Shown here: one piece after another, positions 21,804 through 39,956 of the stretch
Position numbering within the stretch: position 1 is the stretch's first letter
Layout of the letters: each line of letters starts with the position of its first letter
Assembly (NCBI GenBank): GCA_016867835.1
Contig: VGIQ01000010.1
Location: 1 to 41,953, forward strand
Reading direction: 5' to 3'
Source: Calditrichota bacterium
Lineage (GTDB): Bacteria; Electryoneota; AABM5-125-24; Hatepunaeales; Hatepunaeaceae
DNA: 41,953 nt
Made by a program: the position numbers and the translations under genes
Notes under the pieces: model-generated
The model's input: the letters and a program-made list of their open reading frames with translations, nothing else
What the model was told of the DNA's origin: nothing
Databases searched by the model: none

Positions 21804-22355
21804 ATGAAGGCAATTCTGACCGATGTTACGCACTGCATCGGCTGCAGACAGTGCGTAATGGCTTGCAAGAAGGCCAACGAACTCGAAGACGAACTGCCGC
21901 GCCGGTGGGTGCTCGAGGACGGACTCTCGGCGCACAACTGGACGGCAGTGCTCGAAACCGACGGCGTCTTTGTTCGTAAGCAGTGCCGGCATTGTCTCGA
22001 ACCGGCTTGCGCATCGGTTTGCCCGGTGGCTGCACTTCACAAGCACGAATCGGGTGCGGTGATCTACGACTCCAACAAGTGCACGGGTTGCCGCTACTGC
22101 ATGATGTCGTGCGCGTTTGGGATACCGCGCTACAAATGGGAGAGCCGGGTCCCGACGGTCGCGAAGTGTGTGTTGTGCTATAAGCGCATCGAGCAGGGGC
22201 TCCAGCCGGCCTGCACCAGCACCTGCCCGGTCAAAGCCACCATATCTGGCGAGCGCGCCGATCTCTTGAAGAGGCACGCAAGCGCATTGCTCTGCACCCC
22301 GATCGCTACATCGACAAGATATGGGGCGAACACGATGTGGGCGGGACGGCGGTGA
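21804..22355 (+). CDS. HybA/DsrO/HmcB-type ferredoxin with four [4Fe-4S] sites, frameshifted near its C-terminus
   Basis: Electron-carrying iron-sulfur subunit with cysteine groups for four [4Fe-4S] clusters: CIGCRQCVMACK, CRHCLEPACASVCP, CTGCRYCMMSC and the split CVLC...CTSTCP. Residues 1-155 read normally. After GERADLL the frame drifts into RHASALLCTPIATS and stops at 22355. The expected continuation, EARKRIALHPDRYIDKIW followed by VGGTAVIYISHIDLDF, is intact in the plus-two frame, so one base appears to be missing at about 22263-22267. The true protein would continue in the next frame and end in a membrane helix. There is no visible signal peptide. It starts one base after the cytochrome b gene. 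Confidence 0.82.
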   Translation: MKAILTDVTHCIGCRQCVMACKKANELEDELPRRWVLEDGLSAHNWTAVLETDGVFVRKQCRHCLEPACASVCPVAALHKHESGAVIYDSNKCTGCRYCMMSCAFGIPRYKWESRVPTVAKCVLCYKRIEQGLQPACTSTCPVKATISGERADLLKRHASALLCTPIATSTRYGANTMWAGRR

Positions 22356-23071
22356 TCTACATCAGCCACATCGATCTCGATTTCCTCACTTACGGCCAGA
22401 AATTGTCTCGCGAGCCGCTGCCGCGTCTTACGGCTCCGGCGATGGAAGCGGTTCCCTACACCTTCGTCGGTATGGGGATCTTTATGACCGGCTTGCACTG
22501 GATCATTCGGAGGCGGATGAAGGCTGGTGAGGGAGATGGAGGAGCGAGTCATTCTGTCACGAAGGCGGGGAATCTGAAGGAGGCAGCGATGACGACCCGC
22601 GTTCGTAACGTCAAACTGGGCTTATGGGGGATTACGGGCCTCGGCGGTGCGGTGGCGATCATGCGCCTCTTCTTTGGCTTGGGAGCGACGACCAATCTCT
22701 CCGACGGGACGCCCTGGGGGCTCTGGATTGGGTTCGATGTGATGGGCGGGGTAGCGCTCGCTGCCGGCGGCTTCGTCATCACCGCCACGGTCTATATCTT
22801 CCGCCGGGAGGAATTTCATCCTATCGTCCGGCCGGCGGTGTTGACGGCGTTTCTGGGCTATATAGCAGTCATCATCGGACTACTCTTCGATCTGGGCCTA
22901 CCCTGGAACATCTGGAGGCCGATGGTCAAGCGGCTTAATCCCCGCGCTCAAATTCGATCCGACGATGGTCTTCATTCTACTGGCGGGATTTGGGCTGGCG
23001 GCAATGTCCGGTGCGACGGTGCGGAGCCGAGGAATCGAAGAGACGCCGGTGCATCGCGCCCGCGGTGGTGA
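22337..23071 (+). pseudogene. Displaced C-terminus of the ferredoxin joined in frame to a truncated NrfD/HybB-like membrane subunit
   Basis: The first part (to about 22558) is the missing end of the upstream ferredoxin: VGGTAVIYISHIDLDFLTYG and a membrane helix VPYTFVGMGIFMTGLHWII. There is no stop before ATG 22589, which has a strong GAAGGAGG site and begins an NrfD/HybB-like quinone-interacting protein. That protein has about four hydrophobic segments (LGLWGITGLGGAVAIM, WGLWIGFDVMGGVALA, PAVLTAFLGYIAVIIGLLFD) and the family stretch LGLPWNIWRPM. After about 113 residues, near 22925, recognisable sequence stops and the frame runs through unrelated codons to 23071. HybB proteins are usually 300-400 residues, so roughly two thirds is missing. 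Confidence 0.7.
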
Positions 23072-23687
23072 TACGCTCTGGATCGACGGCAACATCGACG
23101 GATTTGGAGCGATTTTTTCGCACAAGAACCATATGCGCGGAGCATGGCGGGGTGACCTTTGCATCGAATGTCACGAGGCGCCTCCGACTTTTACCGACGG
23201 GCACTTGATCGGAGATCGCGAGTCGGATCCGACCTGCGTCCGGTGTCATCACATGAACCTTCCCCGCGATGCCAACACCGGCTGCGCGACCTGCCATCGC
23301 GACATGTACCGGCCGACCGATGCCTTTGGTCATGTCTGGCATTCATCACGGTTCGGGGCCGATCTCGGTTGCTATGAATGCCATGCTCGCGGTGAGCCGA
23401 AAGTATCTGAGAACGCTCCCAAGTGCACCAAGTGCCACAGCGACTTAGTTGCCGAAGGCTCGACGATTGAGTTCCATCACTATCAGGCTCCAGGCTACGT
23501 CGAAGCGATGCACAATCTCTGCATCACCTGTCACAATGCCAAGGCGGAGATCAATGGGCAACCTGATCTGGCGCGGTGTGCGACCTGCCATCCCGGACAA
23601 CGCGACTTCATCGACCGCATCGATCTGGCTGCCCGGCACCGGCATTTGAAGGGGAAAAGGGTGGTGTTGCCGCTCCTAAGGGAGTGA
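22965..23687 (+). CDS. Seven-heme periplasmic cytochrome c
   Basis: A 240-residue multiheme cytochrome with seven CXXCH motifs: CIECH, CVRCH, CATCH, CYECH, CTKCH, CITCH and CATCH, with further histidines that can serve as distal ligands (FSHKNH, HHMN, HVWHSSRF). The N-terminus MVFILLAGFGLAAMSGATV looks like a signal sequence, but has no positive charge before its hydrophobic core, and the reading frame is open upstream (ALKFDPT). The true start may therefore be lost together with the end of the HybB-like gene, whose out-of-frame tail it overlaps by 107 bases. By position it would be the HmcA/DsrJ-like partner that takes electrons from the membrane module. Confidence 0.82.
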   Translation: MVFILLAGFGLAAMSGATVRSRGIEETPVHRARGGDTLWIDGNIDGFGAIFSHKNHMRGAWRGDLCIECHEAPPTFTDGHLIGDRESDPTCVRCHHMNLPRDANTGCATCHRDMYRPTDAFGHVWHSSRFGADLGCYECHARGEPKVSENAPKCTKCHSDLVAEGSTIEFHHYQAPGYVEAMHNLCITCHNAKAEINGQPDLARCATCHPGQRDFIDRIDLAARHRHLKGKRVVLPLLRE

Positions 23688-30031: not shown

Positions 30032-30979
30032 GTGAAACGGATCGCTCATAGCGGAATGTCTCTGCCTATAAAGTCTTGCTTTGCAGTGAAGTTGTTGCAT
30101 GCCCCTCTTGCCTGCAGTATCATATCGGTCGCGATAGCAGCGGCAGGTCCGGTGATAGCGGCGGATGCGCACGTTCCGACCGATGCTGCATGTATAGAGT
30201 GTCATAGCCGCTCCAATCGTCTGGTGGAACGCCTCACCCCGACCAAAGCGAGCCGGATGCTCGTCGATACCACTGCGATGGAACGTTCGGTTCACGGATC
30301 CGCCTGCCTCGCCTGCCATTCGAATGGTACCGCCCTGGCCATCGCCGACCATCCTGCGACTACCACCACGAACTGCGGCAGGTGCCATGCTGCCCAGGAA
30401 GCCGAGTGGAGCGAATCTATCCACGGGTTGCAGGCGCAAGCCGGAAACCTTGATGCTCCGCGCTGTAATACCTGCCATGGAGCTCACGACATCCGGATGC
30501 ATGACGACCTTGAGTCGCCGGTCTATCGCCGCAATCTTCCGGCCACTTGCGCAACCTGCCACGAGTCGACAGAACTGCAGAGCAAATATCGCTTTTCGCG
30601 CAACCGGCTGCTCACCTATAAGAACAGTTATCACGGTATTGCTGTCAAATTCGGCCGGGCTGAAGCGGCCGATTGCGCCAGTTGCCATAGCGCTCACTCG
30701 ATCCGGCCTTCGAGCGATCCGCGCTCTTCGATCCATCCGGCAAACATCCCCTCGACTTGCGGTAAATGCCATCCCGGGGCAGGGGAGCAGTTCGCCCGGG
30801 GAGGTGTCCACGTCCTGGCTGAAAAGCAGAGTTCACCGGGGATGTTCTACGTCCGGAAGTTCTACACTTGGTTCATAGGCACCCTGATGGTTCTCTTCTT
30901 CCTTTATATCGTGATTGAACATACCGGATCTGCCCGGGCGCGCCGTAAGGAGAGATCCCGGGAAGGAGGCAGGAGGTAG
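30032..30979 (+). CDS. Membrane-anchored seven-heme cytochrome c
   Basis: A 315-residue cytochrome with an N-terminal signal sequence (about 20-43), seven CXXCH motifs (CIECH, CLACH, CGRCH, CNTCH, CATCH, CASCH, CGKCH) and a C-terminal transmembrane helix (YTWFIGTLMVLFFLYIVIE) followed by a basic cytoplasmic tail. The heme domain should therefore lie in the periplasm. The part SYHGIAVKFG to SIHPANIPSTCGKCHPGA is closely repeated in the nine-heme protein two genes downstream. The start is GTG at 30032 or ATG at 30056. Immediately downstream, with an AGGAGG site, comes a cytochrome b, so the pair probably forms a quinone-linked complex. Confidence 0.88.
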   Translation: MKRIAHSGMSLPIKSCFAVKLLHAPLACSIISVAIAAAGPVIAADAHVPTDAACIECHSRSNRLVERLTPTKASRMLVDTTAMERSVHGSACLACHSNGTALAIADHPATTTTNCGRCHAAQEAEWSESIHGLQAQAGNLDAPRCNTCHGAHDIRMHDDLESPVYRRNLPATCATCHESTELQSKYRFSRNRLLTYKNSYHGIAVKFGRAEAADCASCHSAHSIRPSSDPRSSIHPANIPSTCGKCHPGAGEQFARGGVHVLAEKQSSPGMFYVRKFYTWFIGTLMVLFFLYIVIEHTGSARARRKERSREGGRR

Positions 30980-30980
30980 T

Positions 30981-31670
30981 ATGGATTCTCCTTCGACTCA
31001 GAACAACGTTAAGAATGCGTCATCGGTGCTCCGGTTTCCGTTCGTCTGGAGGATTCAACATGCGTTGATGGCTCTGGGGGTCATTGGATTGGCGCTCTCC
31101 GGGCTGGCTTACCGATATTACGACACCGGGCCGGGAAGATTGCTGATGTCCTTCGAAGGTGGATTCGGAGCGCGCGGAATTTTGCACCGGATATGTGCCG
31201 CCCTGCTCGGTGCGGCTATTGTCTGGCACTTCTTCTGGGTCGTCTTCACCCGGAGGGGACACGACGATTTCCTCGCACTCATGCCGGAGAAGGGCGATAC
31301 CCGACGGTGGTGGGAAGCGCTGAAGACGAAACTGCGTGGTGAGCCGTATCGTGCCGATTGGGGACGATACACCCTCGGCCAAAAGGCGCAGTATTGGATC
31401 ATCGCAACCGGTTCGATCCTCATGGCGCTCTCGGGATTGATGCTGCTGTTGGGTGATCGCATCCTCGGTATGATGCCAAAGCAGGCGCTCGACCTTATAC
31501 GGGTGATTCACGGCGGGGAGGGCGTCGAACTCATGATCTTCATCGTCTTATGGCACCTCTATTCGACGCATCTCTCGCCGGGTCGTTTTCCGATGGACAA
31601 TGCCTGGTTGACCGGTCGCATTTCGCGGGAACGGCAATCTCGAGAGCATCCCCGGGAAGTCGTCCCATAG
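30981..31670 (+). CDS. Di-heme cytochrome b (FdnI/b561 type), first copy
   Basis: A 229-residue membrane protein of the formate dehydrogenase gamma/b561 type, with four hydrophobic segments (LMALGVIGLALSGLAY, ICAALLGAAIVWHFFWVVF, YWIIATGSILMALSGLMLLL, VELMIFIVLWHLY). Histidines at RIQHALM, ILHRICA, IVWHFFW and VLWHLYSTH are placed as b-heme ligands. It should take electrons from, or give them to, menaquinone and pass them to the preceding seven-heme cytochrome. ATG at 30981 follows AGGAGG. The next cytochrome gene starts immediately after its stop codon. The second cytochrome b, at 32795, is a clear paralogue. Confidence 0.87.
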   Translation: MDSPSTQNNVKNASSVLRFPFVWRIQHALMALGVIGLALSGLAYRYYDTGPGRLLMSFEGGFGARGILHRICAALLGAAIVWHFFWVVFTRRGHDDFLALMPEKGDTRRWWEALKTKLRGEPYRADWGRYTLGQKAQYWIIATGSILMALSGLMLLLGDRILGMMPKQALDLIRVIHGGEGVELMIFIVLWHLYSTHLSPGRFPMDNAWLTGRISRERQSREHPREVVP

Positions 31671-32798
31671 ATGCTGACTATGACGAAACTTTTCTTCTTA
31701 TCGTCGTGCAACTGGCTTTCAAAGAGCCTTAAATGCCCGACACTTACGACGATCGCGACGGCTTTTGTGCTGACCGGTTGGAGTCCACTTAATGCACAGA
31801 TACAGGCGGTTGCATCGCCCTCGTCGCGTTGTCTATTCTGCCATGGCAAGGTGGACTTTGTAAAGCGTTGGCAGGATGGTCGGATAGACAGCCTCTTCGT
31901 CGATGTGAGGTTACTCGATGTTTCGGTTCACTCCCGTTGGAATTGCACGGATTGTCACTCGACGGTGACGACGCTGCCGCATGCACCTGTCCTTGAGCGT
32001 GTTGACTGTAGCCGGTGTCACTTCTCTGGCAATCCATCAGGCGCTCCTCAAGGAGAATTATACGACCAATATCGACACTCGGTCCATGGTCGGGCAGTGG
32101 CAACGGGCAACCGGAAAGCGCCGATTTGTCAGGACTGCCACGGCGGGCACAACGTCCACCGCCGCACCGACGAAGCGAACCCTCTTGGGCATAAGCGAGT
32201 TGCCACCACCTGCGGTCGCTGCCATACCGAGGCTTATGCCGAGTTCCGGCTGTCGGTTCACGGCACCCAACTCGAGTCAGGCAACCGGGATGCTCCCTCC
32301 TGCATCAATTGCCATGGCGAACACGACATCCGACCGCCGGACGATCCCGAGTCGGCGGTTACGACCCGAAATGTTATGAACACCTGCTCAGCCTGCCACG
32401 CTTCAGAGGCTTTGAAGGAATCCTACGGTGTCCGGACGGTGCAGGTCGAAACTTACAAAGGGAGTTATCACGGCATTGCCGTCAAGTTCGGCCAGAATCG
32501 TGCAGCCAGTTGCGCCAGTTGTCATGGACATCACGACATCCTTCCCTCGAGCGACCCGAAGTCCCGGATCCATCCGGCTAACATCCCGGCAACCTGCGGC
32601 TCATGCCACCCGGGAGCCAATGCCAACTATGCCCGGGGACGGATTCATATAGATGCCGCGAGCAAAGATGCTGGAATAATATACTATGTAGCATCGTTCT
32701 TCAAGTATCTCACCATCGGGACGCTTATCGTCTTGATCATCAATATCATCCTCGACCTTAGACGACGCCTTTTGACGCGACGGGTGCACAAGTCGTGA
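31671..32798 (+). CDS. Membrane-anchored nine-heme cytochrome c
   Basis: A 375-residue cytochrome with an N-terminal signal region, nine CXXCH motifs (CLFCH, CTDCH, CSRCH, CQDCH, CGRCH, CINCH, CSACH, CASCH, CGSCH) and a C-terminal transmembrane helix (YLTIGTLIVLIINIILDL). The last third aligns with the seven-heme protein at 30032: I count 47 identities in 67 positions over the SYHGIAVKFG to ARGRIHI region. It ends in a GTGA overlap with a cytochrome b gene. This nine-heme plus FdnI-like arrangement resembles a split version of Geobacter CbcL, in which both parts are one protein. A second ATG at 31680 is a possible start. Confidence 0.88.
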   Translation: MLTMTKLFFLSSCNWLSKSLKCPTLTTIATAFVLTGWSPLNAQIQAVASPSSRCLFCHGKVDFVKRWQDGRIDSLFVDVRLLDVSVHSRWNCTDCHSTVTTLPHAPVLERVDCSRCHFSGNPSGAPQGELYDQYRHSVHGRAVATGNRKAPICQDCHGGHNVHRRTDEANPLGHKRVATTCGRCHTEAYAEFRLSVHGTQLESGNRDAPSCINCHGEHDIRPPDDPESAVTTRNVMNTCSACHASEALKESYGVRTVQVETYKGSYHGIAVKFGQNRAASCASCHGHHDILPSSDPKSRIHPANIPATCGSCHPGANANYARGRIHIDAASKDAGIIYYVASFFKYLTIGTLIVLIINIILDLRRRLLTRRVHKS

Positions 32799-33697
32799 GT
32801 GACTCTCTCGACCGGATCCTGACCGAAGCCGGCCTTGACGATGAAGCCGGTCGGAGGGACTTGCTCGAAGCGCTCGCGACCGAAGTGGGCGAAGAGCGCC
32901 TCAGCCAGATCATCACTGCGATGGCGTCTGCAAAGAGTCGGGCGCTGTCCAAACCTCAAGCCCCGCTAACTGAACCTCACGTATCGCATCCTCGGGTCGA
33001 ATCGAAGACCTATCTCCGTTTCAACCTCTCGACCCGCATCCAGCATGGAGTAATGGCGTTGTCCGTGCTTATTCTCATCGTTACCGGGCTCCCCTTGAAG
33101 TTCCATGATGCCCGGCTTTCTCAATGGGTGATGAACTTGATGGGAGGCATAGAGGTCTCGGCAATCGTCCATAGGGTCGGCGCAACGCTGCTGATTGGTG
33201 TCGGACTGGCACACTTGCTCTACATATCGCTCACCCGGGTCGGCCGGCGGGATTTGTTCCTTCTACTTCCCCGCTTCAAGGACTTGCGCGACTGGATCCT
33301 GATGCTAAAATATTATGTCGGTTTGACTGAGGAGAAGGCTCGTTTTGGGCGGTTCAGTTACATCGAAAAATTCGACTACTGGGCGGTCTATTGGGGTATG
33401 GTCATCATGATCACGTCGGGATCGCTGCTCTGGTTTCAGGACTTCTTCCTCAAGTTCATCCCGAAGTGGATGCTCGACATCGCCAAGGAAGCGCACTCCG
33501 ATGAAGCACTGCTGGCAACGCTCGCGATCATCGTCTGGCATTTTTACAATGTCCATTTCTCGCCGGCCAAGTTTCCGATGAGCAAAGTCTTCATTAACGG
33601 CAAACTAACCCGCGAGGAGATGGAAGATGAGCATCCTCTCGAACTCGAGGAGATGGAGAAAGAGAGCCAGGGACGAAAGACGAAGAGTGAACAATGA
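32795..33697 (+). CDS. Di-heme cytochrome b (FdnI/b561 type), second copy
   Basis: A 300-residue cytochrome b: an N-terminal soluble extension of about 65 residues (DRILTEAGLDDEAG onward), then four membrane segments with histidines in RIQHGVMAL, VHRVGATLLIGVGLAHLLY, and IIVWHFYNVHFSP. The C-terminus is highly acidic/basic (EEMEDEHPLELEEMEKE). It shares the RIQH...VHR...WHxYxxHxSPxxFPM layout with the first copy but has an extended N-terminus and tail, so the two are diverged rather than recent duplicates. Translation is coupled to the nine-heme cytochrome by a GTGA overlap. It probably links that cytochrome to the quinone pool. Confidence 0.87.
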   Translation: MSDSLDRILTEAGLDDEAGRRDLLEALATEVGEERLSQIITAMASAKSRALSKPQAPLTEPHVSHPRVESKTYLRFNLSTRIQHGVMALSVLILIVTGLPLKFHDARLSQWVMNLMGGIEVSAIVHRVGATLLIGVGLAHLLYISLTRVGRRDLFLLLPRFKDLRDWILMLKYYVGLTEEKARFGRFSYIEKFDYWAVYWGMVIMITSGSLLWFQDFFLKFIPKWMLDIAKEAHSDEALLATLAIIVWHFYNVHFSPAKFPMSKVFINGKLTREEMEDEHPLELEEMEKESQGRKTKSEQ

Positions 33698-33758
33698 AGT
33701 GGGATAACGCCACCATTCCGGGTTCAAGGCCTCATCAGAAGCCCTTCAGCACTTATTC

Positions 33759-35339
33759 ATGATTCGCTTTTTCATAGATTTATGGCGGGTGGTCGTCGAG
33801 CATCGGAAGCCGTTGCTTTTGACAACCGGTGGAATCGTCATCTTCGTTGCTATCGTTAATGGCGGCTACTACTTCTACTCGGCGCGACCGGAGTCGTGCC
33901 TGGTCTGTCACTATATGCAGCCTTTCTACGACCAATGGCGCAATTCGGCGCACAGGGATGTCAACTGCACCCAGTGCCACCCCGGTCGTCGGACATTGAT
34001 CGACACCTACCTGCTGCGCTATCTGACCAACTCCTACCGCAGCCGTCCGCATGCCAACGTAACTGCCGCCACTTGCCTTAAGTGCCACGACGAGTCAACC
34101 CTTGTCGGTGAGATCACCTACCAGCGCGGCATCAAGTTCAACCACGAACATCACCTCGGGCAGATGCGTCGCGGCAAGAAATTGCGCTGCACCTCCTGCC
34201 ATGCAACCGGTATGCCCGACTCGAAGTTGTCGGTTGACAACGAGGCTTGCTATCTCTGCCACTTCATGGAGGCAGCCCAGGGACGCGCATTCACATCCTG
34301 TAATGCCTGCCATGGCATACCGACGGTGAAGGTGGAACATCAGGGATTCCAGTTCAACCATCAGTCCTATGTTGGTCCGGAGGGCAGCGGTCAGGGCATC
34401 GATTGCTCGGCCTGTCACGTGTCAGTCGTGAGTGGCGGGGGGGCGGTTCCGGAAGCAAAATGCTACGAATGCCATAAGACGCGGGTCGATATCCGGCGGG
34501 ATCTTGATGCCGTGCATCGGCTCCATATCACCGAGCAGGGTGTCGATTGCTTCCGATGCCACGACCGAATCGAACATGGCAAGGTTGAAATGTCCGGCGC
34601 GCTGTCGCTCGACTGTGCGAAGTGCCACGCTCCCGAACATGGTGCGACGATGCAGATGTTCATGGGCACCGGTGGTGAAGGCGTAGCCGATCACCCCGAT
34701 GCGATGTTCCTGTCGCGCGTCTCGTGCGAAGCCTGCCATACGCCGGGGGCAGTGCAGATGAACCTGCCCGGAAGAATGCCGCGTCAATCGACCTTTGCCG
34801 AAAAGCGACAGACTTGCGTCTATTGCCATGGTGCCGGCTACGACCGGATGCTCGACGACTGGAAAGTCGGTTTCGATCGTCTGGTGAGCGAACTTCGCCC
34901 GTTGGTGGCAGCGGTCAAGGCGCCTCCATCCTCCTACCAGAATCGGGAGAGGATGTTCGTAAGCGAGGCTTTGCGTAAAGCCCGGGTTAACTTCGATCTT
35001 CTGGTAGAAGGCAAGGCGGTCCACAATCCGTTTTATGCGCTTTCTCTGGCGCGGCAGATATTCACCGCAGTTGATTCGGCAGCAGTGGCAAAGGGAACGT
35101 CGCGGCCGACGCCGCCGCAATTGTTAACGCGTGCTGATGCGGCTTGCATGCTCTGCCATACCGCCCGGCCTCCGGCGGCGGAAATGCCCTTTTCAGGAGC
35201 GACCTTCTCGCACGAATTGCATGTCGAAGGTGCTGGTCTAAGTTGCACCCAATGCCATTCGTCAACCACCCACCGAACACAGGATATCGACCGGTCCACT
35301 TGTGTTGAGTGCCATGAGAACCGGTTTGTGGCCAAATGA
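33759..35339 (+). CDS. NapC/NirT-anchored fifteen-heme cytochrome c
   Basis: A 526-residue protein beginning with a transmembrane anchor (LLLTTGGIVIFVAIVNGGYYF) and a NapC/NirT-type first heme, SCLVCHYMQPFYDQW, followed by NCTQCHPG. It has fifteen CXXCH motifs: CLVCH, CTQCH, CLKCH, CTSCH, CYLCH, CNACH, CSACH, CYECH, CFRCH, CAKCH, CEACH, CVYCH, CMLCH, CTQCH and CVECH. Between hemes 12 and 13 is a heme-free helical stretch of about 100 residues. Its arrangement, including MFMGTGGEGVADHPDAMF, is shared with the larger cytochrome that follows. The NapC-like start suggests direct or indirect quinol contact, and the long heme chain a periplasm-spanning wire. Confidence 0.87.
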   Translation: MIRFFIDLWRVVVEHRKPLLLTTGGIVIFVAIVNGGYYFYSARPESCLVCHYMQPFYDQWRNSAHRDVNCTQCHPGRRTLIDTYLLRYLTNSYRSRPHANVTAATCLKCHDESTLVGEITYQRGIKFNHEHHLGQMRRGKKLRCTSCHATGMPDSKLSVDNEACYLCHFMEAAQGRAFTSCNACHGIPTVKVEHQGFQFNHQSYVGPEGSGQGIDCSACHVSVVSGGGAVPEAKCYECHKTRVDIRRDLDAVHRLHITEQGVDCFRCHDRIEHGKVEMSGALSLDCAKCHAPEHGATMQMFMGTGGEGVADHPDAMFLSRVSCEACHTPGAVQMNLPGRMPRQSTFAEKRQTCVYCHGAGYDRMLDDWKVGFDRLVSELRPLVAAVKAPPSSYQNRERMFVSEALRKARVNFDLLVEGKAVHNPFYALSLARQIFTAVDSAAVAKGTSRPTPPQLLTRADAACMLCHTARPPAAEMPFSGATFSHELHVEGAGLSCTQCHSSTTHRTQDIDRSTCVECHENRFVAK

Positions 35340-35359
35340 ACGGTGATAGAAGTGGATTA

Positions 35360-35394
35360 AGGCGGGCTCCCAACCGGGAGCCTGCCTCACTTTT
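35360..35394 (+). terminator. Terminator or attenuator between the two giant cytochrome genes
   Basis: AGGCGGGCTCCC (35360-35371) pairs with GGGAGCCTGCCT (35376-35387), with one G-U, around AACC, followed by CACTTTT. The T run is short, so partial termination or mRNA 3'-end stabilisation is more likely than full stop. Confidence 0.5.
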
Positions 35395-35484
35395 GAAGAA
35401 TGAGAGGTCCGAAAGTAGCCGCAGATGGTACTGACATACCTTCTGGCAGCCCCGATTGGAGCACTTGTTGCAACCGCAACGATC

Positions 35485-35556
35485 GGTGAGGGTGGACGTC
35501 CTCGTCCGCCCGCACCACGTCTCCACTTTACACACCGGACGAAGGCGTCCGGCGTG
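35485..35556 (+). repeat. Two strong hairpins before the eighteen-heme cytochrome gene
   Basis: GGTGGACG-TCCT-CGTCCGCC (35491-35510), extended outward by GGTG (35485-35488) and CACC (35513-35516), is followed by CCGGACG-AAGG-CGTCCGG (35535-35552), extended by CAC/GTG to 35531-35556. Both have four-base loops and GC-rich stems. With the hairpin at 35360 they make three in a 249-base spacer holding no gene. They may be repeats or control the second giant cytochrome. Confidence 0.5.
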
Positions 35557-35588
35557 CACGAACCAAGTTCAAGTTCGAATAATCGATA

Positions 35589-37661
35589 ATGCTCCGCGAA
35601 ATTATAAATATCGCCTACGGCATCCTGAGCCTTCCTATCCGGATCGTCAGGAAGATCGTCGAACGCTTTCAACGTTGGGGTTGGAAGCGGACGCTGTTGG
35701 TCGTTTCTGTGGCTTTCGTCCTTGTGACGGTATTGATGACGCTTTTCGTCGAGGCGACGTCGCAGCCGACGTTTTGTGTAACCTGTCACTACATGCGGCC
35801 CTACTTCGCGTCATGGGAGGAGTCGTCGCACCAGGGCGTCGCCTGCACGATGTGCCATTTTCCTCCCGGCATAAAGAGCGCACTCAAGCAGAAGTTCACA
35901 GCATCGTCGATGGTAGTGAACTATGTAACCGGCATCTATAAGCGTTCCAAGCCTTGGGCAGAGGTCTCGGATGAATCCTGCCTTAGGCCGGGCTGCCACG
36001 AGACGCGGCTGCTCGAAGGCCGGGTTGAGTTCAAGGAAGGCATCATCTTCGACCATAAGCCGCACCTGACCGAAGATCGACTCGGCAAGACTCTGCGCTG
36101 CACTTCATGCCACAGCCAGATCGTTCAAGGCGAGCACATATCGGTAACCGAGACAACTTGCTTCACCTGCCACTTCAAAGGCGATGCCTCAGGGGAACTT
36201 TCACGCTGCACAAAGTGCCATGACGCACCGATAGCATCGCCGACCGGCGCTTCAGTTAAGTTCGATCACGTTCGGATAGTGGAGCAGGGGGTGTCGTGCC
36301 TCAGGTGCCACGGCACAATGCAGGTCGGGACCGGCGAAGTGCGCAAGGAACGATGCTCATTTTGCCACGCGGACCTCGGCAAGATCAACAAGTTCGACGA
36401 TACGCCGTTCGTCCACAGAAAGCACATTGCCGAGCACAAGGTCGAGTGCCAGAACTGCCACCAGGAGATTCTGCATCGCTCGGTTTCGCGCACCGATGAA
36501 GTGAAGCCGTCGTGCGAGGACTGCCATCCCGGGTTTCACGGAGTGCAGGTCGATCTCTTCACCGGCACCGGTGGCAAGGGCGTCGAACCTCATCCTTCTA
36601 CGATGTTCCAGTCGGGCCTCAACTGCCGGGGCTGTCACATTCAAGCCTCTGCTGCTGATGGCTTTGCTGAGAAGGGGATCACCTACAAAGCCTCAGGCGT
36701 GGTTTGCACTCCATGCCACGATCCGGGCTACGACCGCATCCTCGAAGGCTGGAAGCGTCGCAACAGCGAGCGGCTCATGCAAATCCAGCGCATCGAGCAG
36801 ACTGTGGCCGGGGCAGTAAAAGGCGTGAGCGTCGAGCATCGGGCTGTGGCGGACTCTCTGCTTGAAGCAGCCCGTTACAATATCTCGATGGTCGATCTGG
36901 GACATGGCATTCATAACATCCCGTATGCCGAGGCGCTGTTGGGAACGGCTTATGGCCAGTTGCAAAGCGCCTATCAAATGGCGCGGCCGGGGGCTAACCC
37001 GGGGTCGTTCGAGATCGGACTGCCAAAGTCGGGCGCCGACTGTATGACCTGTCACTATGGCGTTGAGACGATGATCGTTCAGCGCACCACCGGAAGCCCA
37101 TTTCCCCATTCACCGCACGTCTTGCAGCATGGTCTGGCTTGCCTCAAATGCCATGACAACTCGAAACGGCATGGCAGTCTGGCTCTCTCCCGGAACGAAT
37201 GCAACAGTTGCCATCATAAGACCGACGCCGGCAAGTCGCCAGATTGCCAGAACTGCCATTCGCTGCAGGCGACGCTCTTCAAGGGTGATTCCACCTGGGG
37301 TTCCGATGCCTTTGCGGATGCAATGTCCGAGTCCGGAATGGAATGCGCGGACTGTCATTTGCCGCAAGAGAACGCCGTGAAACGGTCGGGCGGTGAGACC
37401 TGCGCCGAGTGCCACGACGAGACCTATGCCGACCTGCTGATAGACTGGAAAGATGAGACAACGCACGGGATTGCAGTCGTCGATTCACTTCTTCACATCT
37501 GCCGCAACGTTCAATTGCCTGAACTGACTGCCCTTCGCCAGGAAACCGACCGCATCCGTAAGGACCGCAGCCTCGGCGCTCACAACCACGGCCTGGTGGT
37601 GGCGATTCTCAAGCGCAACAGGGTCCGGCTGGAGACATTCATCAAGGAACAGGGACTATGA
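35589..37661 (+). CDS. NapC/NirT-anchored eighteen-heme cytochrome c with one CX4CH site
   Basis: A 690-residue paralogue of the preceding gene. It has an N-terminal anchor helix (about 36-54, TLLVVSVAFVLVTVLMTLF) and NapC-like CVTCHYMRPYFASWEESSH, then CTMCH. There are seventeen CXXCH motifs plus one CX4CH (CLRPGCH, residues 131-137, codons 35979-35999) at the position of CLKCH in the fifteen-heme protein. Shared landmarks are LGKTLRCTSCH and LFTGTGGKGVEPHPSTMF. A heme-free helical region (about 390-500) precedes six more hemes, and the last 75 residues are heme-free and helical. It is preceded by three hairpins. Likely periplasmic, carrying electrons over long distance. Confidence 0.87.
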   Translation: MLREIINIAYGILSLPIRIVRKIVERFQRWGWKRTLLVVSVAFVLVTVLMTLFVEATSQPTFCVTCHYMRPYFASWEESSHQGVACTMCHFPPGIKSALKQKFTASSMVVNYVTGIYKRSKPWAEVSDESCLRPGCHETRLLEGRVEFKEGIIFDHKPHLTEDRLGKTLRCTSCHSQIVQGEHISVTETTCFTCHFKGDASGELSRCTKCHDAPIASPTGASVKFDHVRIVEQGVSCLRCHGTMQVGTGEVRKERCSFCHADLGKINKFDDTPFVHRKHIAEHKVECQNCHQEILHRSVSRTDEVKPSCEDCHPGFHGVQVDLFTGTGGKGVEPHPSTMFQSGLNCRGCHIQASAADGFAEKGITYKASGVVCTPCHDPGYDRILEGWKRRNSERLMQIQRIEQTVAGAVKGVSVEHRAVADSLLEAARYNISMVDLGHGIHNIPYAEALLGTAYGQLQSAYQMARPGANPGSFEIGLPKSGADCMTCHYGVETMIVQRTTGSPFPHSPHVLQHGLACLKCHDNSKRHGSLALSRNECNSCHHKTDAGKSPDCQNCHSLQATLFKGDSTWGSDAFADAMSESGMECADCHLPQENAVKRSGGETCAECHDETYADLLIDWKDETTHGIAVVDSLLHICRNVQLPELTALRQETDRIRKDRSLGAHNHGLVVAILKRNRVRLETFIKEQGL

Positions 37662-37760: not shown

Positions 37761-39956
37761 ATGCACACCGCTCTAAGAGTCATTGGCCTGTGCGGCATGC
37801 TGCTCGCTGCCAACGTGTCGGCGCAGGACTCGGTAGGTGTTTCCTGCATTGGGAGGATATTCCACGATTGGGACAACGCCGTCGGGATCGCCCTTGACGG
37901 TAACCTGACAGTCGTTGCAACGCAACTTTCAGGAGTGCACTTCCTGGACTGCAGCGTTCCTGAACAGCCGGTTCAGATAGGCACCTGTCGCGGAAATGCT
38001 TCCAGTGAAGCCGTAGTGGTCCGCGATGAATTTGCCTATGTGGCCGCCGGCCCGGATGGGCTGGCGATCTACGACTACTCCGAGCCGCGCCGCCCCACAG
38101 CAGTCTCAATGTTGCCACTCCGGGGCCGCGCCTGGGATATCGTTCTGAACGGCGATCTGGCTTATCTGGCACTCGATGTCGAAGGCATTGCGGTAGTCGA
38201 TGTCGCGAATCCGGCGGAGCCAGAGTTGCTCATGGTGCTTGACACCGTCGGTTCGATTCGCAAGATCGCTTTGGCTGAAGACTATTTAGTCGTAGCCGCC
38301 GATACGGCCGGGGTCATGATTCTTGACATCCGCAATCCGCGCCGCCCTGAAGTTGTCAGCATCACCTTTGTCCCCGGCCAGACCCGGGCGGTGGCTGTTG
38401 ATGGTCGAATCGCCTATCTGGGTGCCCACTCGCGCGGCTTGCAGGTGCTTGACTTCTCCAACCCCATTGCGCCTCAGGTCGTCGGATCTCTCGCGACCCC
38501 GGACAACGCCATCGGCATGGCTTATGATGAGGGTCGAGCCTACATCTGTGCCCGGTCAAGCGGGTTGCGCATTGCCGACGTTACCGACCCCCGCAATCCA
38601 ATGCTGTTGGGAATCTTCGACTCACCGGGGAATGCCCGTGATGTGGTCATAAGGGAGGGGGCTGCTTATCTGGCCGATCTTAGTGCCGGTTTTCGCATCG
38701 TCGATGTGACCAATCCGGCTCAGACCCGGGTGATTGGATTCTACGACACACCGGACTACATCCTGAATCCAAAGTTCTCGAGTGCCGTCTTATCAGGTTT
38801 CTTTCTTGTTGTTACCAAAGGCGAAGCCGGTATGGGGATCATCCAATTGGCGGGACAACAGCCCCCGTTAAACCTCGGCAATTACAACTCCCCCGGTCGC
38901 GCGTTGGATGTCTTCACCTCGGGGACAACGGCGTATATGGCAGACGATTCAGCGGGGCTGCGGGTGGTCAGTTTTGCCAATCCGGCGTCGCCCCGCTCGG
39001 TTGGATCCTATGGCCAGACCCAAGCCGTTCAAGTGAAATATGCCGGCGAATTGGGAGCAATGGCGGCGCCCTATATGCTTGTTGCCAGTCCAGCAGCCGG
39101 TGTGCAGTTCTTCGATGTATCAGCACCCGAATCGCCACAACTTGTCCTTACGGTCGATGAGTTAGGCGGGACACGGTCGCTTGCGGTCTTTCGGATGGGC
39201 AATTCGTGTCGAGTCTATTGGGCGGCCGGCGAGAGGGGGCTTGCGACGATGACCATCTCGGATCCGCGGCAGCCCGATCAGGTTCAGGTTCGGACGTTCG
39301 ACCTTGGCGGGCCGGTCTATAATGTCGCCTCTGGCGGCGAGGTCGATCGGGTCTATGCAGCCGTGGATGGCAGCGGCATAGCAATACTGGCTATCGATCG
39401 GGAGGAGTCGCTCCTCGGATTCATTGAATTGACAGGTCCCGTCCACAAGATGGCGCAACGGGGAGATCATCTACATGTTGCCAACGGTGAAGACGGATAT
39501 CGGCTCTTCGACTTGTCGGCACCGGATGCGCCTAATGAAGTCGGCTACTATGACTTCGATGCTGAGTTTTCGCCGTGTCTGGGATTTACCCTGCTTGCCG
39601 ACAATGTGGTAGCGGTGGTCGATACCGGCAGCATTCGCATACTTGATGTGGCCGAAGCGATGAGGGTCGAACAAAACGCTCATCCCGTGCCGAAAGACCA
39701 CCTCTTTGCCATCTATCCCAATCCTTTTAATGCCGCTCTTACGATCTCTTATGAGGGATTACAAGCAAAACCTACACGCATCGGTATCTATAACCTTTCC
39801 GGGCGACTGATCAGAGAGTGGGATGTAGAAGGCAACTTGGGTGTTGCAGGGAGACGCCTTACATGGGACGCAGCTGATGCCGCCAACGGGACTTACTGGG
39901 TGTGGATGGAGTCGAGTCAAGGAATCGCTTTGAAGAAGGTGGTCTTACTCAAGTAG
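37761..39956 (+). CDS. Secreted LVIVD-repeat beta-propeller protein with C-terminal sorting domain
   Basis: A 731-residue protein with a signal peptide (1-21, ending ANVSAQ). Many LVIVD-type repeats of about 40 residues follow (for example AYLALDVEGIAVVDVANPAEP, AYICARSSGLRIADVTDP, AYLADLSAGFRIVDVTNPAQ, split here to show the shared pattern YxA...GLxIxDVxxP), predicted to form beta-propellers. The last 80 residues are a FlgD-like sorting domain with YPNPFNAALTISYE and GIYNLSGRLIREW, ending VVLLK, as in type A T9SS cargo. It should be exported and attached or released at the surface. It has its own upstream AAAGGGAGAG ribosome site and possible promoter. No catalytic motif is evident. Confidence 0.87.
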   Translation: MHTALRVIGLCGMLLAANVSAQDSVGVSCIGRIFHDWDNAVGIALDGNLTVVATQLSGVHFLDCSVPEQPVQIGTCRGNASSEAVVVRDEFAYVAAGPDGLAIYDYSEPRRPTAVSMLPLRGRAWDIVLNGDLAYLALDVEGIAVVDVANPAEPELLMVLDTVGSIRKIALAEDYLVVAADTAGVMILDIRNPRRPEVVSITFVPGQTRAVAVDGRIAYLGAHSRGLQVLDFSNPIAPQVVGSLATPDNAIGMAYDEGRAYICARSSGLRIADVTDPRNPMLLGIFDSPGNARDVVIREGAAYLADLSAGFRIVDVTNPAQTRVIGFYDTPDYILNPKFSSAVLSGFFLVVTKGEAGMGIIQLAGQQPPLNLGNYNSPGRALDVFTSGTTAYMADDSAGLRVVSFANPASPRSVGSYGQTQAVQVKYAGELGAMAAPYMLVASPAAGVQFFDVSAPESPQLVLTVDELGGTRSLAVFRMGNSCRVYWAAGERGLATMTISDPRQPDQVQVRTFDLGGPVYNVASGGEVDRVYAAVDGSGIAILAIDREESLLGFIELTGPVHKMAQRGDHLHVANGEDGYRLFDLSAPDAPNEVGYYDFDAEFSPCLGFTLLADNVVAVVDTGSIRILDVAEAMRVEQNAHPVPKDHLFAIYPNPFNAALTISYEGLQAKPTRIGIYNLSGRLIREWDVEGNLGVAGRRLTWDAADAANGTYWVWMESSQGIALKKVVLLK

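Follow-up and report, generated by a model that had tools for sequence, protein, structure and literature searches.

A six-gene multihaem cytochrome cluster as a probable inner-membrane entry to extracellular electron transfer

What is known of inner-membrane entries to extracellular respiration comes mainly from Geobacter and Shewanella, where ImcH, CbcL, CbcBA and CymA occur as separate loci. Geobacter CbcBA combines a seven-haem c-type cytochrome with a cytochrome b and is not known to have another such bc pair beside it. In the CbcL/MtrH/MtoC family, an N-terminal multihaem c part (3–23 CXXCH motifs) and a HydC/FdnI-type b part form one polypeptide with six helices, while ImcH has three N-terminal helices, a CX3CH motif beside them and 5–9 CX2CH motifs (PMC6295460). 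Cbc5 (CbcEDCBA) comprises three c cytochromes, one b cytochrome and one membrane protein (PMC11434368), and an unnamed "cluster 1" of MBNT15 bacterium SHF-111, with four multihaem c cytochromes (9–16 haems) and two b cytochromes, has been proposed to reduce Fe(III) with electrons drawn from the quinone pool (PMC9386147). Here we analyzed a 41,953-nucleotide stretch of DNA (contig VGIQ01000010.1 of assembly GCA_016867835.1, hereafter the window) from a bacterium deposited as Calditrichota and placed by GTDB in the phylum Electryoneota. Six consecutive genes on its + strand (30032–37661) probably encode the inner-membrane entry point at which an extracellular electron-transfer chain oxidises quinol (or reduces quinone), a reading to which we assign a probability of about 0.68.

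The cluster contains 48 CXXCH motifs and one CX4CH motif (Table 1), exactly as counted in an earlier sequence-only reading of the window. Shuffling each c protein with its composition kept yielded a mean of 0.04–0.11 motifs and a maximum of 2, which excludes a chance origin of the CXXCH motifs. Genes 1 and 2 are spaced by 1 bp (gene 2 ATG at 30981), genes 2 and 3 abut, genes 3 and 4 overlap via GTGA, and genes 4 and 5 lie 61 bp apart; this tight packing arranges genes 1–5 like an operon. The very short spacers or GTGA overlaps that had been ascribed to all six genes hold for these five but not for gene 6, which follows a 249-bp gap containing a hairpin. Because of this gap and the strong hairpin, gene 6 may form a separate transcription unit. 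The hairpin has a short U run, received no flag in the terminator scan and was called from folding energy alone.

Genes 1–4 form two c + b pairs. The family profile of the b subunits (genes 2 and 4) matches 1kqf_C, the FdnI cytochrome b subunit from formate dehydrogenase N, and 19 of 19 aligned homologues of these b561-type proteins retain the same six histidines. Relatives of gene 3 at 40–51% identity are found across many phyla, those of gene 4 (52–60% identical) occupy the same position in other loci, and natural c–b fusions having the CbcL layout align with gene 3 over their c half and with gene 4 over their b half. Judged from these sequence features, genes 1 + 2 and genes 3 + 4 look like bc quinol oxidases of the CbcBA/CbcL type. 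The likeness to the CbcL/MtrH/MtoC family (for Geobacter CbcL, by its described layout) consists of nine c haems before a HydC/FdnI-type b part, with genes 3 and 4 covering both halves of the fusion; in the window, however, the pair is split into two genes, doubled by genes 1 and 2, and joined to 15–18-haem NapC/NirT-type proteins. Genes 1 and 2 resemble CbcBA, as described, in being separate genes for a seven-haem c and a b cytochrome, but differ from it in gene order.

The most unusual part of the cluster is its 18-haem quinol-dehydrogenase-like family. Genes 5 and 6 are paralogues (~31–33% identity), each encoding one N-terminal helix, an NrfH-like domain and then c7-type repeats; against PF03264, gene 6 scored 46.0 bits (cut-off 24.1) and gene 5 slightly under the cut-off, at 22.3. 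Both share this domain, behind a single N-terminal helix, with the NapC/NirT/NrfH quinol dehydrogenases, but CymA and NrfH are small proteins with four to five haems, whereas genes 5 and 6 encode 15 and 18 haems in 526 and 690 aa. ImcH is likewise an inner-membrane multihaem cytochrome with a NapC/NirT-like domain; its identity with genes 5 or 6 was ruled out by their one helix and 15 and 17 CXXCH motifs, against three helices and 5–9 CX2CH. A maximum-likelihood tree of 39 NirT proteins separated a gene-5 clade (15 sequences, support 100/100) from a gene-6 clade (24 sequences, 100/100), and an NC10 genome (L114) carries one protein of each clade in tandem, as in the window. Genes 5 and 6 are members of a NapC/NirT family with 15–18 haems that falls into two old clades and differs from both ImcH and CymA. 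The window locus thus combines a gene-5 cassette with a gene-6 type that is widespread across its phylum.

The CX4CH motif of gene 6 (CLRPGCH, residue 131) is its third haem site. All 18 haem sites are kept in an alignment of 16 gene-6 orthologues, one from the window and 15 from elsewhere in its phylum, and the third is CX4CH in 15 of the 16 and CX2CH in the other; this conservation, together with the plain motif in one orthologue, argues that CX4CH is a real haem-binding motif. Profile searches with gene 6 matched the nine-haem OcwA of Thermincola (6i5b, E 7e-21) and NrfH (2j7a, E 2e-11). A fold search with its mediocre AlphaFold model (predicted local distance difference test 70, predicted template modelling score 0.44) returned OcwA, NrfH and MccA at probability 1.0, and also NrfA, with no match below E 0.001. 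Genes 5 and 6 could on these grounds be quinol-linked reductases, each an NrfH-like anchor with an OcwA/NrfA-related module that reduces a soluble periplasmic substrate, e.g. nitrite or hydroxylamine, both of which OcwA reduces using plain CXXCH haems (PMC6703420). Yet the similarity to OcwA spans a c-haem stretch and helices and no known active site, and gene 6 contains no CXXCK. Its conserved potential ligands, sixteen free histidines and Met69 for 18 haems, would suffice to make nearly all haems six-coordinate, leaving at most one or two open. Gene 6 combines an NrfH-like N-terminal domain with an OcwA-related C-terminal part, as in NrfH/NrfA and OcwA, but unlike these holds both in one polypeptide with a long c7-type middle and no CXXCK. 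With the linkage of this gene family to porin-cytochrome genes described below, we consider a reductase function improbable.

The gene order is not confined to this contig. From a scan of genome contigs and open reading frame maps, we found a five-gene core (c, b, nine-haem c, b, NapC/NirT-type cytochrome) in at least eight other phyla, counting variants with a c–b fusion in first position, an additional c gene or the first b missing; a few of the contigs are truncated. Two genomes from another family of the window's phylum (G021, G024) have the identical order, with an 11-haem c in first position and a 17-haem NirT in last. Further instances occur in metagenome-assembled genomes (MAGs) of Myxococcota/"Deltaproteobacteria" (three: L082, L083, L107), Poribacteria (L084), Zixibacteria (L085), Calditrichota (L086), BMS3Bbin03 (L087), Bacteroidota (L089, L090, L119), Acidobacteriota (L091, L118), Syntrophorhabdaceae (L092) and NC10 (L114, with nine haems confirmed for its gene 3), and an unclassified bacterium (L088) has the seven-haem form seen in the window. 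The cluster is a real, conserved and widely distributed locus. A close relative of gene 4 is present in just 3 of 39 genomes of the window's phylum, a rarity that suggests lateral spread of the core cassette.

The closest published precedent that we found is MBNT15 cluster 1. Compared by published content, it has the same composition of four multihaem c and two b cytochromes, but differs in its haem counts and in that its fourth c cytochrome was read as an outer-membrane reductase (PMC9386147). Cbc5, also compared by published content (PMC11434368), was rejected as the identity of the cluster, which has four c and two b cytochromes. The sequence-only reading had recognised no named system in the electron exit or entry. 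The five-gene core indeed has no name, nor has cluster 1 in the MBNT15 report, but the parts resemble known kinds, namely CbcBA/CbcL-type bc oxidases and NrfH/NapC-type quinol dehydrogenases.

No porin-cytochrome complex (barrel plus periplasmic and surface multihaem cytochromes) was found within the window, and the earlier description of the cluster as a quinone-linked conduit lacking a porin or recognised terminal reductase in this stretch was fair. An exit can nevertheless be proposed from relatives. In three Bacteroidota loci, genes for a 4-haem protein, a barrel, a 14-haem protein and a six-haem protein follow the cluster on the same strand. In hhalign, the barrel of one of these loci (L089) aligned at 97% probability with barrels adjoining gene 6 in genomes of the window's phylum, and the six-haem protein of this locus contains TIGR01904, a domain that takes its name from Geobacter sulfurreducens. 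Within the window's phylum, gene-5/6 types and the periplasmic cytochrome of the porin sets occur together in 21 of 22 genomes versus 6 of 17 (Fisher 7e-5, uncorrected for relatedness), and they lie at most 20 kb apart in 9 of the 21. The window's genome itself encodes a porin-cytochrome set on contig C17, whose ten- and eight-haem cytochromes match counterparts beside gene 6 in relatives, and a partial, possible second set on contig C22. It is very improbable that the cluster, instead of feeding an outer-membrane exit, serves as a general periplasmic hub for several periplasmic reductases, as CymA-type hubs do (PMC6295460). A hub would be in keeping with the unlinked porin set of the window's genome, but porin-cytochrome genes adjoin the cluster itself in Bacteroidota and members of the gene-6 family in the window's phylum.

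For the cluster as an entry to extracellular electron transfer, we propose that the dihaem b subunits (genes 2 and 4) would oxidise quinol in the membrane and pass electrons to the periplasmic seven- or nine-haem subunits (genes 1 and 3), the proteins presumably forming a physical complex. The NrfH-like domains of genes 5 and 6 would also oxidise quinol, and their 15- and 18-haem domains would gather electrons and convey them across the periplasm to the unlinked complex on C17, possibly also to the set on C22, for exit. A bolder version, offered tentatively and with the odds against it, makes genes 5 and 6 a separate class of quinol dehydrogenase whose 15–18-haem domain would extend across most of the periplasm and dock, with no intermediary, on a porin-embedded cytochrome, forming with the bc pairs a shuttle-free conduit from inner to outer membrane that recurs across phyla. 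Menaquinone is a plausible quinone, as had been suggested earlier, because MenA is present in the window's genome (L185). Several points weigh against the entry reading. MenD and MqnA/MqnD were not found in this genome, which is scored complete; the C17 set is unlinked to the cluster, and its barrel matches the cluster-linked barrels weakly; the co-occurrence statistic ignores relatedness among genomes; and OcwA, a relative of the gene-6 C-terminal part, is a reductase. In a separate observation, contigs C72 and C135 of this genome (L184, L187) encode relatives of the archaeal-lipid enzymes geranylgeranylglycerol-phosphate geranylgeranyltransferase and digeranylgeranylglycerophospholipid reductase.

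Electrons might also flow inward: the porin set would then take them up from a partner cell, a mineral or extracellular Fe(II) and deliver them to the quinone pool, and the final acceptor would be nitrate or oxygen. Organisms with CbcL/MtrH/MtoC relatives include Fe(III) reducers as well as Fe(II) oxidisers, and no sequence feature separates the two (PMC6295460); the window's genome also encodes NarGH, NarK and an alternative-complex-III-like cluster, respiratory routes beside which the cluster would be one branch. For CO2 fixation the search covered RuBisCO, which was not found in this genome. Moreover, the Zixibacteria and Calditrichota loci (L085, L086) include an ImcH-type gene in the same run (three helices, one CX3CH, six CX2CH), and ImcH has been implicated in quinol oxidation alone (PMC6295460). 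We regard electron uptake as rather unlikely and favour the outward direction by about two to one.

Table 1 Coordinates of the cluster and of related features in the window's genome
Feature	Location	Coordinates	Strand	CXXCH	Details
Gene 1, seven-haem c7/c3-type cytochrome	window	30032..30979	+	7	PF14522, PF14537; signal peptide; one C-terminal membrane helix near residue 276
Gene 2, dihaem b561 / HydC-FdnI-type cytochrome b	window	30981..31670	+	0	PF01292 E 1.7e-13
Gene 3, nine-haem c7/c3-type cytochrome	window	31671..32798	+	9	C-terminal membrane helix
Gene 4, second b561-type cytochrome b	window	32795..33697	+	0	PF01292 E 2.4e-12; overlaps gene 3 by GTGA
Gene 5, NrfH/NapC-like anchor + 15-haem periplasmic domain	window	33759..35339	+	15	TIGR03153 E 4.8e-10
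Hairpin between genes 5 and 6	window	35347..35395	+		-31.5 kcal/mol, z -4.2; possible transcription boundary
Gene 6, NrfH/NapC-like anchor + 18-haem periplasmic domain	window	35589..37661	+	17	plus one CX4CH; OcwA/NrfA-related C-terminal part
Porin-cytochrome set	L048 (contig C17)	7590-10679			barrel, ten-haem periplasmic cytochrome, eight-haem surface lipoprotein cytochrome
Possible second porin-cytochrome set	L045 (contig C22)	7545-13295			20-haem protein (626 aa), 40-haem protein (1032 aa, internal repeats), then barrel-like protein cut by contig end
Fused 19-haem c + b561 protein	L044 (contig C70)	1193-3808			872 aa; one-piece counterpart of the window's split pairs

Two neighbouring regions of the window were also characterized. 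Upstream, 21804–23687 (+) encodes an HmcB-like Fe-S protein, a short NrfD/HmcC-like membrane protein whose frame looks truncated or frameshifted, and a seven-haem cytochrome (22965–23687, ~6 kb from the cluster and outside it), forming a second quinone-linked electron-transfer set. Directly downstream of gene 6, 37761–39956 (+) encodes an LVIVD-repeat protein with a type IX secretion C-terminal signal. This protein and upstream resistance-nodulation-division efflux genes were rejected as cluster parts, no homologue of either adjoining the cluster in the loci L041 and L043.

In this locus, one cassette unites two bc-type pairs with a long NapC/NirT-type wire, and it recurs in at least eight other phyla, mostly in uncultured lineages represented by MAGs. 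The cassette provides a concrete marker of extracellular electron transfer in genomes where an MtrB-like porin is unannotated, and it makes testable the idea that a single protein may both oxidise quinol and cross the periplasm.

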